This document shows, one piece after another, positions 19,449 to 24,553 of a stretch of 41,264 nucleotides of DNA. The notes under the pieces were generated by a model. It saw only the letters and a program-made list of their open reading frames with translations. It had not been told where the DNA came from and made no database searches. Origin of the DNA: Actinomycetota bacterium (GTDB lineage Bacteria; Actinomycetota; Thermoleophilia; BMS3ABIN01); the NCBI GenBank assembly GCA_023489275.1, contig JAMDDD010000032.1, forward strand, positions 1 to 41,264. The letters are read 5' to 3'. The stretch's first letter is position 1; every line of letters starts with the position of its first letter. Made by a program: the position numbers and the translations under genes.

Positions 19449-19696
19449 CAACTTGATCTCTGTTAGTTAATTGCCTTTGATCCCCGGTGAGAAGACAACG
19501 CACCCGGGCAGCGAAGGGCCCGAGCTTTGCTTCAAGCATATTTTATACCAAGAGCCTCTTTCCCGGGGCTTTTTACGGCTGTTAGAAGCCTGTCCTTGCG
19601 GGAATATAAAGATTTCCAGCAAGAATGAGAATCGCGCCGCCCGCGCCATTCGGTATAAAGGCGGTAACGGAAAACAAAAAGGAAGAGGAGGCCGTT

Positions 19697-20512
19697 TTGC
19701 CCCGCGCCATCTGGTCCGGTCCGATCAGCTTCGGGCTGGTAAATATTCCCATCAGCCTGTATCCGGCGACGAGGGGAAAGAGCGTCTCGTTCCGGCAGCT
19801 TCATGCCGCTGACAATACGCCGATCAATTACGCGAAGGTCTGCCCCAATGACGGCAAGACCCTCTCGGGTGACGAAATCGTCAATGGCTATGAGTTCGAA
19901 AAAGGCCGGTTTGTGGTGATGGAGGATAAGGATTTCGAAGCGGTCACCATCAGGAAGGGCCGGGCCATCGAGATTATCAACTTCTTCGATATCGATGAAG
20001 TTGATCCAATCTATTATCAAAAGTCTTATTACCTGGCGCCGGTGGAGACCAGCCAGAAGGCATTCCGCCTGCTGGTGGCGGCGATGGAGCGGCAAAACAA
20101 GGCGGCGCTGGCAAAATTCTCGCTCGGGGAAAAGCAGCATCTGTCTGTGCTGAGACCCAAAGACGGCGCCCTGCTGCTGGAAACCCTTTATTATCAAGAT
20201 GAAGTCAGAAGCACAAAAGACCTGGATCTCCCGGGTGAAGATGTCGTGCTGGACAGCGGCGAGCTGGAGCTGGCGGAGGGGCTGATGGAGAGGATGACGG
20301 CGGCGTTTGACCTGGCCCGCTTCCGGGATGAGTACCGGGATGAGCTGCTGAAAATCATCAATCAGAAGATCGAAGGCAGGGAGATTGCTGTGCCCGAGCT
20401 GGCGCCGCTCGCGCCGGTGGTTGACATTATGGACGCGTTGAAAAAAAGCATCGCCCGCCAGGAAGAGGAAAAGAAGGGGGCGGCGCCCAAACGCCGGCGG
20501 CGGGCATCGTGA
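19697..20512 (+). CDS. ku: non-homologous end joining protein Ku
   Basis: 271 aa. I place the start at TTG 19697: AGGAGG at 19686-19691 is spaced five bases from it and bacterial Ku proteins begin exactly with M-P-R-A-I-W-S-G-x-I-S-F-G-L-V-N-I-P, which this reading gives. The frame is open upstream to 19625 but that part is not Ku-like. The Ku core follows (KVCPNDGKTLSGDEIVNGYE, YLAPVE) with the short basic bacterial C-terminus (PKRRRRAS). Ku homodimers ring broken DNA ends and recruit LigD, encoded immediately downstream with a four-base overlap. Confidence 0.95.
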   Translation: MPRAIWSGPISFGLVNIPISLYPATRGKSVSFRQLHAADNTPINYAKVCPNDGKTLSGDEIVNGYEFEKGRFVVMEDKDFEAVTIRKGRAIEIINFFDIDEVDPIYYQKSYYLAPVETSQKAFRLLVAAMERQNKAALAKFSLGEKQHLSVLRPKDGALLLETLYYQDEVRSTKDLDLPGEDVVLDSGELELAEGLMERMTAAFDLARFRDEYRDELLKIINQKIEGREIAVPELAPLAPVVDIMDALKKSIARQEEEKKGAAPKRRRRAS

Positions 20513-21984
20513 GCCTGAGCGAATACGAGCGCCGGCGCCGTTTTGCGGTGACGCCCGAGCCCCGGCCGAAAAAAATTCTCGGGGCGGCGGGCACCCCGCG
20601 TTTTGTTATCCAGAAACACGATGCTACCCACATCCATTACGATCTGCGTCTGGAGATGGGTGGCGTGCTCAAGTCGTGGGCCTGTCCCAAGTGTGTCGCC
20701 ACGCCGCATTATCGCAAGAAACTGGCCGTGCAAGTGGAGGACCATCCACTGGAATATCTCGATTTCGAAGGGGAGATTCCCGAGGGAGAGTACGGCGCCG
20801 GCAAGGTTGAGATTTGGGACCGGGGCACTTACGAGACTTTTGCCGATCCTCTGGGGGCGCTGGACAAGGGAGTGCTGACGATCGTCCTCATGGGCGAGCG
20901 GGTCCGCGGCGAATTCAGTCTGATTCACATGAAAGGAAAGGGGAACAGCTGGTTGATCATTCTCAACAAGACGGAGCTGCTTAACCCCGACCTGGCGGAT
21001 GAAGGAAGGGCGGCGCCGATGCCGGCCCGGATCACGCCCATGCAGTCTTTCCTGGCGGCGGAACCGTTCGATTCTCCCGAGTTCATCTTCGAAGTTAAGT
21101 TCGATGGCGTCCGCGCCGTGTCTTTTCTGGGAGCAGACGGTTCGCTCGCCATCAGGTCCCGCAACGGCAAGGAACAGGCGTTTCGTTACCCGGAGCTGGC
21201 CAACTTCGGCAAGATGTTTCTGGCTCAGGAGATCGTCATTGACGGTGAGATCGTCGCGGTCGACGTGCGGGGAGTATCACGGTTTCAGCTGTTGCAGGGA
21301 CGAATGAATCTCACGGATGAGCGAGAGATCAAGCGGGCTGCCAAAGAAACGCCGATTCTCTACTATGTGTTCGACCTCCTCTATTTAAACGGTCGCGACC
21401 TGACCGGGCTGCCGCTTCAGCGGCGGAAGGAAGTTCTGGAGCGCGTATTTATCCCCCACAAGTACTTGCGCCACACCGACCGGATCGAATCCGGGGGCAA
21501 GGCTTTTTTTAACGCCGCCCGTGAGCTGGGGCTCGAGGGGATCATCGCCAAGCGCAAGCAGAGCCCGTACCGGCAGAAACGCTCGCGCGACTGGCTCAAG
21601 CTAAAAGCGGTTCAGGAGCAGGAATTCGTCATCGCCGGGTTCACCGAGCCGCGGGGCGACAGGGCCCGTTTCGGCGCCCTGCTGCTGGGGCTCTACCAGG
21701 GGAAAGACCTTGTCTATGCCGGTCACGTCGGCACCGGATTCTCCGAGGAGTGGCTCCGGCGGCTCTTTGCGCTGATGTTGCCGTTGGAAGTGGCGGCTCC
21801 GGCTTTCCGGGACGCGCCGCAGCCGAACGAGCCGGCCCACTGGTTGAAGCCGGAGCTGGTGGCGCAGGTAAAATTCGCCGAGTGGACCCGCGATGGCGTG
21901 CTGCGCCAGCCGGTTTTTCTGGGCTTAAGAAATGATGTGAGGCCTGAGGATTGTGTCCGGGAAGAGACACGGCTGGCAGGCTGA
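20509..21984 (+). CDS. ligD: LigD phosphoesterase and ATP-dependent DNA ligase domains
   Basis: 491 aa, GTG start overlapping ku. Residues about 25-150 are the 3'-phosphoesterase domain with metal ligands H37, H43 and D45 (QKHDATHIHYD) and H79 (VEDHPLEY). The ligase domain follows from about 175; the adenylated lysine is K197 in FEVKFDGVR, then LVxGE-like IDGEIVAVD, YYVFDLLYLNG, EGIIAKR and WLKLK, finishing with the OB fold and the conserved EFAEWTRDG-like end (KFAEWTRDGVLRQP). LigD usually also carries a polymerase domain; here that part is encoded by the next frame. It seals ends held by Ku. Confidence 0.95.
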   Translation: MSLSEYERRRRFAVTPEPRPKKILGAAGTPRFVIQKHDATHIHYDLRLEMGGVLKSWACPKCVATPHYRKKLAVQVEDHPLEYLDFEGEIPEGEYGAGKVEIWDRGTYETFADPLGALDKGVLTIVLMGERVRGEFSLIHMKGKGNSWLIILNKTELLNPDLADEGRAAPMPARITPMQSFLAAEPFDSPEFIFEVKFDGVRAVSFLGADGSLAIRSRNGKEQAFRYPELANFGKMFLAQEIVIDGEIVAVDVRGVSRFQLLQGRMNLTDEREIKRAAKETPILYYVFDLLYLNGRDLTGLPLQRRKEVLERVFIPHKYLRHTDRIESGGKAFFNAARELGLEGIIAKRKQSPYRQKRSRDWLKLKAVQEQEFVIAGFTEPRGDRARFGALLLGLYQGKDLVYAGHVGTGFSEEWLRRLFALMLPLEVAAPAFRDAPQPNEPAHWLKPELVAQVKFAEWTRDGVLRQPVFLGLRNDVRPEDCVREETRLAG

Positions 21985-23014
21985 GGCTATGCGCCACCAC
22001 GGGGAGAAACCGCGGGCTGATGATGCGCGAGGAGCCGGTCCCGGCGAGCGTCCCCACCGCGGGCCGGGGTTGTTGCCGCCGCTGCCCGTTCCCGGCCGCG
22101 GCACTCAATTAATCTCGCTGGACGGCAGGGTCCTGACCCTGACAAATCTCGACAAGCCAATATGGCCCCGGGAAGGCTATACCAAGTTTGATCTGATCAA
22201 CTATTACTTTCGCGTTTCCGGCTTCATCCTGCCGCATCTGGCCGGCCGGCCGCTCAGCCTGAAACGCTACCCCAACGGCGCCGGCGCCCCCTTTTTCTTC
22301 CAGAAGCGGGCGGCTCCGGAGACCCCGGCCTGGATCAGGACCAGGAGGATTAAACATGCGGACACCGGCGAGAGCATAGACTATATTATCTGTGACGACG
22401 TATCAACGCTGCTTTATCTGGCCAACCTGGCCTGCATCTCGCAGAATCCCTGGCTGTCGGCGCTGCCAGAGCTGGACCGGCCCGACATCCTGGCGCTCGA
22501 TCTGGATCCGTCCGACCCTGATGATTTTGAGGGATGCATCCAGGTGGCGCTGCTGGTGAAGCGGCAGCTGGACCGGTTTGGCATCACCGGCTATCCGAAA
22601 ACTTCGGGGGCTACCGGCCTGCATGTTTACCTACCCATCAGGCCGGCGTACACATATGGCCAGTGCCGCCAGTTCGCAAAGATTATTGCTCTCCTTTGCC
22701 GCGAGGAGCGTCCCGACCTGATCACGCTGGAATCCTCGGTATCCAGGCGGGGCGGCAAGCTGTACCTCGATTACATGCAAAACGTAAAAGGGAAGACGTT
22801 GGCCTCGGTGTACTCGGTCCGGGCCCGCACGGGAGCGCCGGTATCGACGCCGCTAAAATGGGATGAGGTTCAACCGGGACTGAGGCCGGCGGACTTCACG
22901 ATGGAAAATACGCCGGCGCGGCTGACGGCGGCCGGCGACCTGTTTGCCGGCGCCCTGGCAGGGGGGCATGACCTGATGCGCGCGGTCACGAGGGCAGAGA
23001 GGATGCTGAGCTAA
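21953..23014 (+). CDS. LigD polymerase (primase-polymerase) domain protein
   Basis: 353 aa if begun at GTG 21953; an ATG at 21989, four bases after the ligase stop, is an equally good start. The first 50 residues are a Gly/Pro/Arg-rich linker; the LigD polymerase domain runs from about residue 55 (LTNLDKPIWPREG). Catalytic aspartates are in LALDLDPSD, the nucleotide site in KTSGATGLHVYLP, and the third acidic residue in KLYLDYMQN. It fills gaps with nucleotides or ribonucleotides during end joining. The frame is +1 relative to the ligase frame, and domain order matches fused PE-LIG-POL LigD. Either a true split gene or a frameshift in the linker. Confidence 0.92.
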   Translation: MSGKRHGWQAEAMRHHGEKPRADDARGAGPGERPHRGPGLLPPLPVPGRGTQLISLDGRVLTLTNLDKPIWPREGYTKFDLINYYFRVSGFILPHLAGRPLSLKRYPNGAGAPFFFQKRAAPETPAWIRTRRIKHADTGESIDYIICDDVSTLLYLANLACISQNPWLSALPELDRPDILALDLDPSDPDDFEGCIQVALLVKRQLDRFGITGYPKTSGATGLHVYLPIRPAYTYGQCRQFAKIIALLCREERPDLITLESSVSRRGGKLYLDYMQNVKGKTLASVYSVRARTGAPVSTPLKWDEVQPGLRPADFTMENTPARLTAAGDLFAGALAGGHDLMRAVTRAERMLS

Positions 23015-23907
23015 ACGGGGTCCCTGCGGGCCTCCCGCTGCCGGAGCCAGTGGTTTTCGTTTAGCTCGCCTTTACCTGGCTCACAAGCCCACCAGGGGAC
23101 GTAGCGCCAGGCTCCTTTAAGCTCACGGTCCAGCCGCCGGAAATCAGGCTCGTGACGGGCTACCAGTTTCCAAAACCGGGGGGAGTGATTCAGTTCCACC
23201 GTATGGCAAAGCTCGTGAATGAAAACATATTCAACCAGCAGCGCCGGCACGAACAGGAGCTTCTGGTTGACGCTGATAGTTTTTCTGGCGGAGCAACTGG
23301 CCCAGCGCGTGCGCTGGCTTCTGATCGCTATTCTGGCGAACGGCAATCCCCGCTCGGCGCTTACCTGGATCAGCCAGGGGGGGAGGGCGGCGCGGGCCTT
23401 GCGTGCTGTCCAGCGCCGCAGAGCCGCGGCGGCTTCCTCCCGGGACGGGCAGCCGCTGACCTTTACACCGTCCGGCGTCTCGCGCGCCAGCGCCCGGCTG
23501 GCGCGGCCGTTTGCGTAAACGACGCTCCGCTCTTCACCGATTGCCCGCAGAAGGATGGATCGCGGCAGGGCCGGCGGCTCGTTTTCGAGCTCCTGGCGGC
23601 GGGCTTCGATCTCTGCTGCGGCTTTGCTAATCCAGGCGTTTTCCCGGTTGACGAGGGCGGGAATGCGCGCGGTGTCGTAACCGCGCGGAACGATCACCAG
23701 CAGGCCATTATCGAGGGTATATTTGAGCCGGACGCGCCTGGCGCGCGCGCTTTCCCTGATCAAGTATGGATGCGTCCGGAGAAGCGGATCGGGCCGGCCC
23801 CCAACGAGGTTATTACTCGCCTTCGCCGTCTTCTTTCTCCGGCGTTTCCGCGGCAGTCCCTGCTGGCTCGGCATCGGTCTGCTTGCCGGTTTCTTCGGAA
23901 GTCTCAC
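23011..23907 (-). CDS. YgjP-type (DUF45) zinc metallopeptidase
   Basis: Up to 298 aa. The zinc motif HELCHTVELNH lies at 231-241 (ligands H231, H235, H241, with catalytic E232), after the conserved RSQRTRWASCS and a family-typical YVFIHEL. This is the gluzincin family of YgjP/WLM and SprT-like proteins. The stop overlaps the polymerase stop by a shared CTAA. The N-terminal 36 residues are basic and lie in the 3' end of rpsT, so the true start is uncertain: GTG 23907, ATG 23874 and TTG 23763 have no clear Shine-Dalgarno, and translation coupled to rpsT is possible. Relatives act on DNA-protein crosslinks, which would suit this repair locus, but that is inference. Confidence 0.85.
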   Translation of the reverse strand: MRLPKKPASRPMPSQQGLPRKRRRKKTAKASNNLVGGRPDPLLRTHPYLIRESARARRVRLKYTLDNGLLVIVPRGYDTARIPALVNRENAWISKAAAEIEARRQELENEPPALPRSILLRAIGEERSVVYANGRASRALARETPDGVKVSGCPSREEAAAALRRWTARKARAALPPWLIQVSAERGLPFARIAIRSQRTRWASCSARKTISVNQKLLFVPALLVEYVFIHELCHTVELNHSPRFWKLVARHEPDFRRLDRELKGAWRYVPWWACEPGKGELNENHWLRQREARRDPV

Positions 23908-24430
23908 CGGACGACTCAGCCTCAGAAGGTTCAGCCTCTACCTGATCCTGAGTTTCAGCCTCCGCTTTTTTAGCGGCGGCCTCGTCTCCGGCAGGCGGCG
24001 CCTCGCCGGCTTTCTTACCGGCTTTTGCCGCGGCTTCAGCGCGGATGGCCTGTTTCTTTTTTGTTTCTTCCTTCTTCGACTGCTTGGCGGCCGTGCGCTC
24101 CGACCGCGAATCGGCCTTGCTCTGGCCTGATTTAGGCTCGGTCGTTGCCGGCCCCGCAGGCTTTGAAACGCCTTCCGCCAGCTGGATGATCGCAGTTACA
24201 CGTGACTTTTTCCGGGCGGCGTTATTGGCATGGAGCACGCCGTGGCCCGCAGCGCGGTCGATGAGCGCAATCAGCTCCAGCGCCAGCTGCTGGGCCTTGT
24301 CCTTGTCTTCCGCCGCCGCCAGTGACAGCGACTTGAACATGGTCTTGATCCGGGACTTGTACTGGAGATTTTCCAGCCGCTCGCGGGCGGCGATCTTTAC
24401 TCGTTTGCGCTGCTGTTTGATATTTGCCAA
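23813..24430 (-). CDS. rpsT: 30S ribosomal protein S20 with long C-terminal extension
   Basis: 205 aa from a TTG start at 24430 (GGAG six bases upstream), giving the expected M-A-N-I-K-Q-Q-R-K-R beginning. Residues 1-86 are the complete S20 helical fold, which binds 16S rRNA, with RVKIAARERLENLQYKSRIKT, the central acidic helix and VLHANNAARKKSR. S20 normally ends there. Residues 88-205 are low complexity: Lys/Ala-rich and basic up to about 145, then Glu/Ala/Ser/Thr-rich and acidic to the end, surely disordered. Its 3' end overlaps the metallopeptidase gene on the same strand. UUG starts are also used by rpsT in E. coli, where they are part of autoregulation. Confidence 0.92.
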   Translation of the reverse strand: MANIKQQRKRVKIAARERLENLQYKSRIKTMFKSLSLAAAEDKDKAQQLALELIALIDRAAGHGVLHANNAARKKSRVTAIIQLAEGVSKPAGPATTEPKSGQSKADSRSERTAAKQSKKEETKKKQAIRAEAAAKAGKKAGEAPPAGDEAAAKKAEAETQDQVEAEPSEAESSGETSEETGKQTDAEPAGTAAETPEKEDGEGE

Positions 24431-24553
24431 TAAAGACTCCGGATGCTCGCTGCTCCGCTCCACGGTAAAAGCCGACCCGATTTGCCAGAGCACTAAATAA
24501 TGTGAAATAAATACGCAGTGGCGAATAATAACACAAAATAAGAATGCTTGCAG

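Follow-up and report, generated by a model that had tools for sequence, protein, structure and literature searches.

The window, as we call the whole 41,264-nucleotide stretch of DNA analysed here, carries on its minus strand the gene rpsT, running from 24430 to 23813. It encodes the organism's only ribosomal protein bS20, which bears a lineage-specific C-terminal extension. Based on its translation and profile matches, the gene opens with a TTG codon, ends with TAA and specifies 205 amino acids; a GGAG resembling a ribosome-binding site (24437..24440, minus strand) lies 7-10 bases 5' of the TTG, and plus-strand reading across 23813-24430 is interrupted by stops. The S20 core, predicted as three helices, occupies residues 1-81 (24188..24430, minus strand), with Pfam PF01649 covering residues 2-81 (E 2e-21, 76.8 bits against a cut-off of 29.5, profile positions 1-81 of 83) and NCBIfam TIGR00029 covering residues 1-81 (77.4 bits against a cut-off of 33). 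A single S20 match was found in the window's genome (G000; 1.58 Mb, 45 contigs, 92% complete). Like ordinary bS20, the protein thus has an 81-residue core matching the S20 profile and derives from a single gene. The long tail that a sequence-only reading had described is borne out: the core match ends at residue 81 and 124 residues follow, or about 119 if counted from residue 86, where that reading had placed the end of the fold. An S20-profile search of the PDB returned no structure of a tailed S20; the chains it found span 76-108 residues, apart from chain bS20c with 166.

All 17 complete S20 genes of the window's order start with TTG (L031-L047; 24428-24430 in the window), and nearly all relatives have a GGAG-like site 5' of it. 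The reading frame is open upstream to 24619, but a start there is ruled out by the sequence MAN(I/T)KQQ, which is kept after the TTG in relatives. In the literature a UUG start is called typical for rpsT in just a few families of gamma-proteobacteria (PMC10931766). TTG also opens rpsT in seven of nine members of another family, f5.

The surroundings of rpsT are conserved to different depths. A divergent UPF0182 gene lies beside it across the order, and a gene for a YgjP-like metallopeptidase does so in the genus and in G011 only; both were considered as partners of the tail, and we argue no functional link from either distribution. As listed from a GTG, the YgjP-like open reading frame (23011-23907) extends over the last part of the S20 tail, and its true start probably lies near 23803, past the S20 stop, because its Pfam match begins only at residue 57. 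Further on, 19625-23014 holds a Ku gene, after which LigD is encoded by two overlapping genes, the first for 3'-phosphoesterase and ligase and the second for Prim-Pol; several members of the genus have this Ku/split LigD arrangement next to rpsT.

Conservation and reading frame of the tail

The window's order, a lineage of the Thermoleophilia, is represented in the collection searched by 19 genomes of one family (f1), and the relatives of the window's genome are mostly MAGs. S20 was found in 18 of the 19, and every one of these carries the tail, in 17 complete open reading frames and one split across two contigs. No S20 of normal length was thus seen among the close relatives, and the alignment that had been suggested as a check supports a function for the tail. 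Errors of sequence or frame, which might have removed an early stop, were also considered. The same tail is present in G004, an independent MAG with an S20 that shares 90% identity with that of the window. Across five pairs of relatives, third codon positions hold 100 of 133 substitutions in the core, 92 of 158 in the linker and helix described below and 120 of 247 in the acidic zone; the excess is significant for linker plus helix (P 1e-10) and for the acidic zone (P 5e-7), the five pairs being not fully independent. This concentration at third positions indicates that the tail is selected as a reading frame, and together with its presence in 18/18 genomes it rules out a frameshift or assembly artefact. 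On these sequence comparisons, the S20 tail is a genuine, recurrent ribosomal add-on found order-wide.

Elsewhere, S20 is mostly short. It ends 4-20 residues past the core in 57 S20-bearing genomes from other families of the class. Its tails measure only 2-15 residues at 77 loci outside the order, from a genome set chosen by similarity, and likewise 2-15 residues at 68 loci outside Actinomycetota, a small and biased sample picked by similarity to the query. The expectation that S20 is conserved in length therefore holds for most sampled genomes and fails in several actinobacterial lineages, where long tails occur.

Architecture and charge of the tail

Three zones were defined from an alignment of 16 order members combined with segment statistics. 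The linker (residues 82-103; 24122..24187, minus strand; consensus VELAEGxGKPKGPATxEAK) is 21 or 22 residues long in all 16. It is followed by a basic helical segment (residues 104-140; 24011..24121, minus strand), delimited by the alignment, an AlphaFold2 model and the helical moment, which measures 37-48 residues across the aligned members and in which S104, K105, R109, R112 and K120 are invariant. The acidic low-complexity end (residues 141-205; 23816..24010, minus strand), delimited by pLDDT, length variation and charge, ranges from 22 to 136 amino acids among relatives. Mean pairwise identity is.77 in the core,.53 in the linker,.49 in the helix and.43 in the acidic zone. Between the window and G004, dN/dS is 0.13 for the core, 0.28 for the helix and 0.44 for the acidic zone; it exceeds 1 for linker and helix in one pair (L045/L046), where substitutions are few. 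No Pfam family matches the window's tail at E<1.

AlphaFold2 places the core helices at 2-41, 43-63 and 68-81 with pLDDT above 90, and a tail helix at 105-139 with moderate confidence (pLDDT 69-87 by ten-residue block), a prediction that draws on 16 sequences and on an Ala/Lys/Glu-rich composition readily called helical. Residues 141-197 have pLDDT below 50 and are predicted to be disordered, without structure. The basic residues of the helix sit on one face, the moment at 100 degrees giving p 0.0024 for residues 104-124 and 0.0002 for 104-132, after a few ranges and measures had been tried.

Eight residue types (A, E, K, P, Q, S, R or G) account for 84% of the window's tail, and 38% of its residues are charged. 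The charge splits best 59 residues into the tail, with +8 before and -17 after; the segregation statistic is 25, against 12.0±3.1 when the tail's own residues are shuffled (z 4.2). As none of 2000 shuffles was as segregated, the basic-then-acidic layout noticed in the sequence-only reading is correct and not due to chance, the tail changing from basic to acidic at about residue 140. Among 17 members, the charge of the basic block is near constant (+10±2) and that of the acidic block is -17±9; 14 of them have fewer than 100 in 2000 shuffles as segregated as the real tail. In the congeners G001-G003 the tail finishes with a Lys-rich stretch; its net charge is +11, +2 and +5, and two-block segregation is not significant. 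Acidic charge does not correlate with tail length (Spearman -0.08). Taken together, the kept charge of the basic block, the variable acidic block and the three net-positive congeners point to the linker and basic helix, and not the acidic end, as the conserved element.

These data bear on a role in self-masking, whereby the acidic end, acting as a built-in chaperone and as the main functional element, would, while S20 is free, fold over its basic core and helix, block premature RNA binding and aggregation, and be displaced by rRNA during assembly. The strong basic-to-acidic order in 14/17 members speaks for such a role. However, no other part of the protein varies as much in length and sequence as the acidic zone, and the three congeners carry a Lys-rich stretch at the C-terminus, with neither significant segregation nor a negative net charge. 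We regard self-masking as unlikely.

Exact tandem repeats of 33-36 bases lie in the acidic zones of G011, G015 and G016, and this zone was partly built through tandem duplication in some relatives. The whole tail might be a mostly neutral expansion, GC-rich low-complexity sequence grown by tandem duplication and tolerated at an exposed C-terminus, as its highly variable length would also allow. Yet a search of the window's own tail for tandem repeats found none, the linker and helix are of fixed or near-fixed length with invariant residues and a dN/dS mostly below 1, and the tail has been lost in none of 18 genomes. Moreover, S3 and S16 of the same genomes are tail-less, which argues against a general drift to tails. 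Of the explanations weighed here, we hold neutral expansion to be the least probable.

Tails on other ribosomal proteins and in other lineages

Ala/Glu/Lys-rich low-complexity regions of ribosomal proteins are mostly C-terminal, according to a 2019 survey in which S2, S16 and L25 are the most frequent carriers (PMC6821194). The window's S20 fits this type of extension: an Ala/Glu/Lys-rich stretch follows a complete core, is conserved and ends in a predicted disordered part, residues 105-139 being predicted helical. It shares with the surveyed extensions the C-terminal position, the composition, attachment to the exposed terminus of an abundant ribosomal protein and order-wide conservation, but S20 is absent from the frequent carriers named there, and the window's protein has a conserved, one-faced basic helix ahead of the acidic part. 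In the Mycoplasma pneumoniae ribosome studied in cells, 11 proteins are extended and the extensions of S6, L22 and L29 were built; such extensions are widespread, with largely elusive functions and fitness effects upon disruption (PMC9534751). They too are lineage-specific and mostly disordered terminal additions, some of them helical and modelled, although they belong to another phylum and the main text of that study makes no mention of S20. Extensions of this kind on ribosomal proteins are thus already known; what the present sequences add is S20 as a new, patterned host, with an unusually clear conserved helix and repeated appearance.

Within f1, S16 and S3 show no extension, nor do the other proteins that were compared from the S10-spc-alpha region. 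Conversely, S2 (uS2) carries a long Ala/Lys/Glu-rich C-terminal tail in the order (L258, L259, L261, L262). A general growth of tails on this genome's ribosomal proteins is therefore set aside, as only S2 among those compared shares a tail with S20, and tails sit on chosen proteins. Three other families of the class (f4, f7 and f8) have an S3 that is 83-104 residues longer than that of the window's order (L206 and L207, S10 operon; L208). Since S3 is extended in those families but not in the window's order, different families bear a tail on different 30S proteins.

The presence of a tail on uS2 in the same genomes would agree with a role outside the ribosome's own assembly, in which an H1-like tail binds nucleoid DNA, the membrane, the degradosome or another ribosome and S20 serves as the anchor. 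The Lys/Ala-rich zone does resemble H1-like tails, and in the 2019 survey the low-complexity tails of ribosomal proteins lie C-terminally, on the ribosome surface (PMC6821194). Against such a tether stand a tail devoid of any recognised domain and the lack, among the genes beside rpsT, of a partner that tracks the trait, UPF0182 adjoining rpsT order-wide and the other neighbours varying; we consider it improbable. H1-like tails on mosquito S6 and L23a, known from titles cited in PMC11764897, are likewise Lys/Ala-rich, C-terminal and apparently gained independently, but are eukaryotic and sit on other proteins.

Tailed S20 proteins were sought by a class-wide, query-based search followed by direct reading, so that the finds are at least those given here, as tails unlike the query may be missed. 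In f8, eight genomes of genus g66 have S20 tails of 75-105 residues, and in genus g19 of the same family the tail consists of 20 basic residues. Tails of 105-119 residues occur in f12. A search of the phylum, again with reading, revealed tails of 79-97 residues in 12 genomes of f31, several of them single-contig, which presumably resemble Eggerthellaceae. The basic-to-acidic order is common to f8, f12 and f31; in f31 a basic block of about 65 residues, with a charge of +8 to +11, precedes the acidic end, and AlphaFold2 predicts a long helix at 107-157. Purely basic, H1-like S20 tails (KTTKTSKSTK and KKAPAKKAAAKK repeats) were also observed in two more families (L255, L256, L257). With respect to self-masking, the shared charge order in three other lineages counts in its favour, and the purely basic tails of L255, L256 and L257 count against it.

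A common origin of the f1 and f31 tails finds no profile support, the profile-profile comparison giving no similarity (hhalign probability 8.5%, 16 columns). As the S20 cores of the two families are also widely separated in the S20 tree, separate gains are likely, though losses in intermediate lineages may have contributed. The tailed lineages f1, f8 (g66) and f12 do not form one clade in a free tree of the S20 core, but a single clade is disfavoured only at a borderline p-AU of 0.057 over 82 columns. Judging from these sequences, the basic-then-acidic tails of the three other lineages of the phylum are probably separate gains. Actinobacteria could even have evolved the same S20 element repeatedly, namely a linker, a one-faced basic helix that engages a defined site on rRNA or a partner and an acidic end acting as effector, with a shared effect on how the 30S subunit assembles or functions, but we find this broader proposal doubtful.

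A possible rRNA contact at the foot of the 30S subunit

With the linker and basic helix as the conserved element, the interpretation moves from self-masking toward an added contact with RNA (or protein) that carries a soluble end. A conserved helix that is basic on one side is consistent with RNA binding. As a primary binder, bS20 joins the 5' domain of 16S rRNA and helix 44 (PMC10931766), and it is this location that leads us to propose a docking site there. The S20 core would bind 16S rRNA first, and the linker would let the basic helix lie along adjacent rRNA at the 30S foot, in the 5' domain and helix 44, where its contacts would add to assembly or stability. The disordered acidic end would remain in the solvent as a flexible, soluble brush, mainly keeping a very basic and abundant protein soluble and limiting non-specific RNA binding before assembly; selection would then act on its general character only, and not on its length or sequence. 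We put this docking explanation as a whole forward tentatively, at slightly less than an even chance. Of the roles suggested in the sequence-only reading, a function agrees with order-wide conservation and RNA binding with the basic helix, while self-masking is weakened by an acidic length of 22-136 residues and by the net-positive congeners.

Low-complexity tails occur commonly on ribosomal proteins, and for few of them is a function known. S20 offers a favourable test case: there is one gene, the border between core and tail is clear, the conserved helix can be separated from the variable acidic part, tail-less close relatives provide a baseline, and f31, with its single-contig genomes, may include cultured members. 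Should the helix have an rRNA site, it would reveal how the 30S subunit of a lineage acquires an additional protein-RNA contact.

A tail that compensates for an altered 16S 5' domain was considered and dismissed, as the two genomes of the order with usable 16S, a gene that is incomplete in these MAGs, show no order-specific insertion or loss in that domain that would explain a new contact. The 16S genes of G010:C6 and G013:C9 break at contig ends, both at one conserved site close to position 900, and this is probably a break of metagenome assembly.
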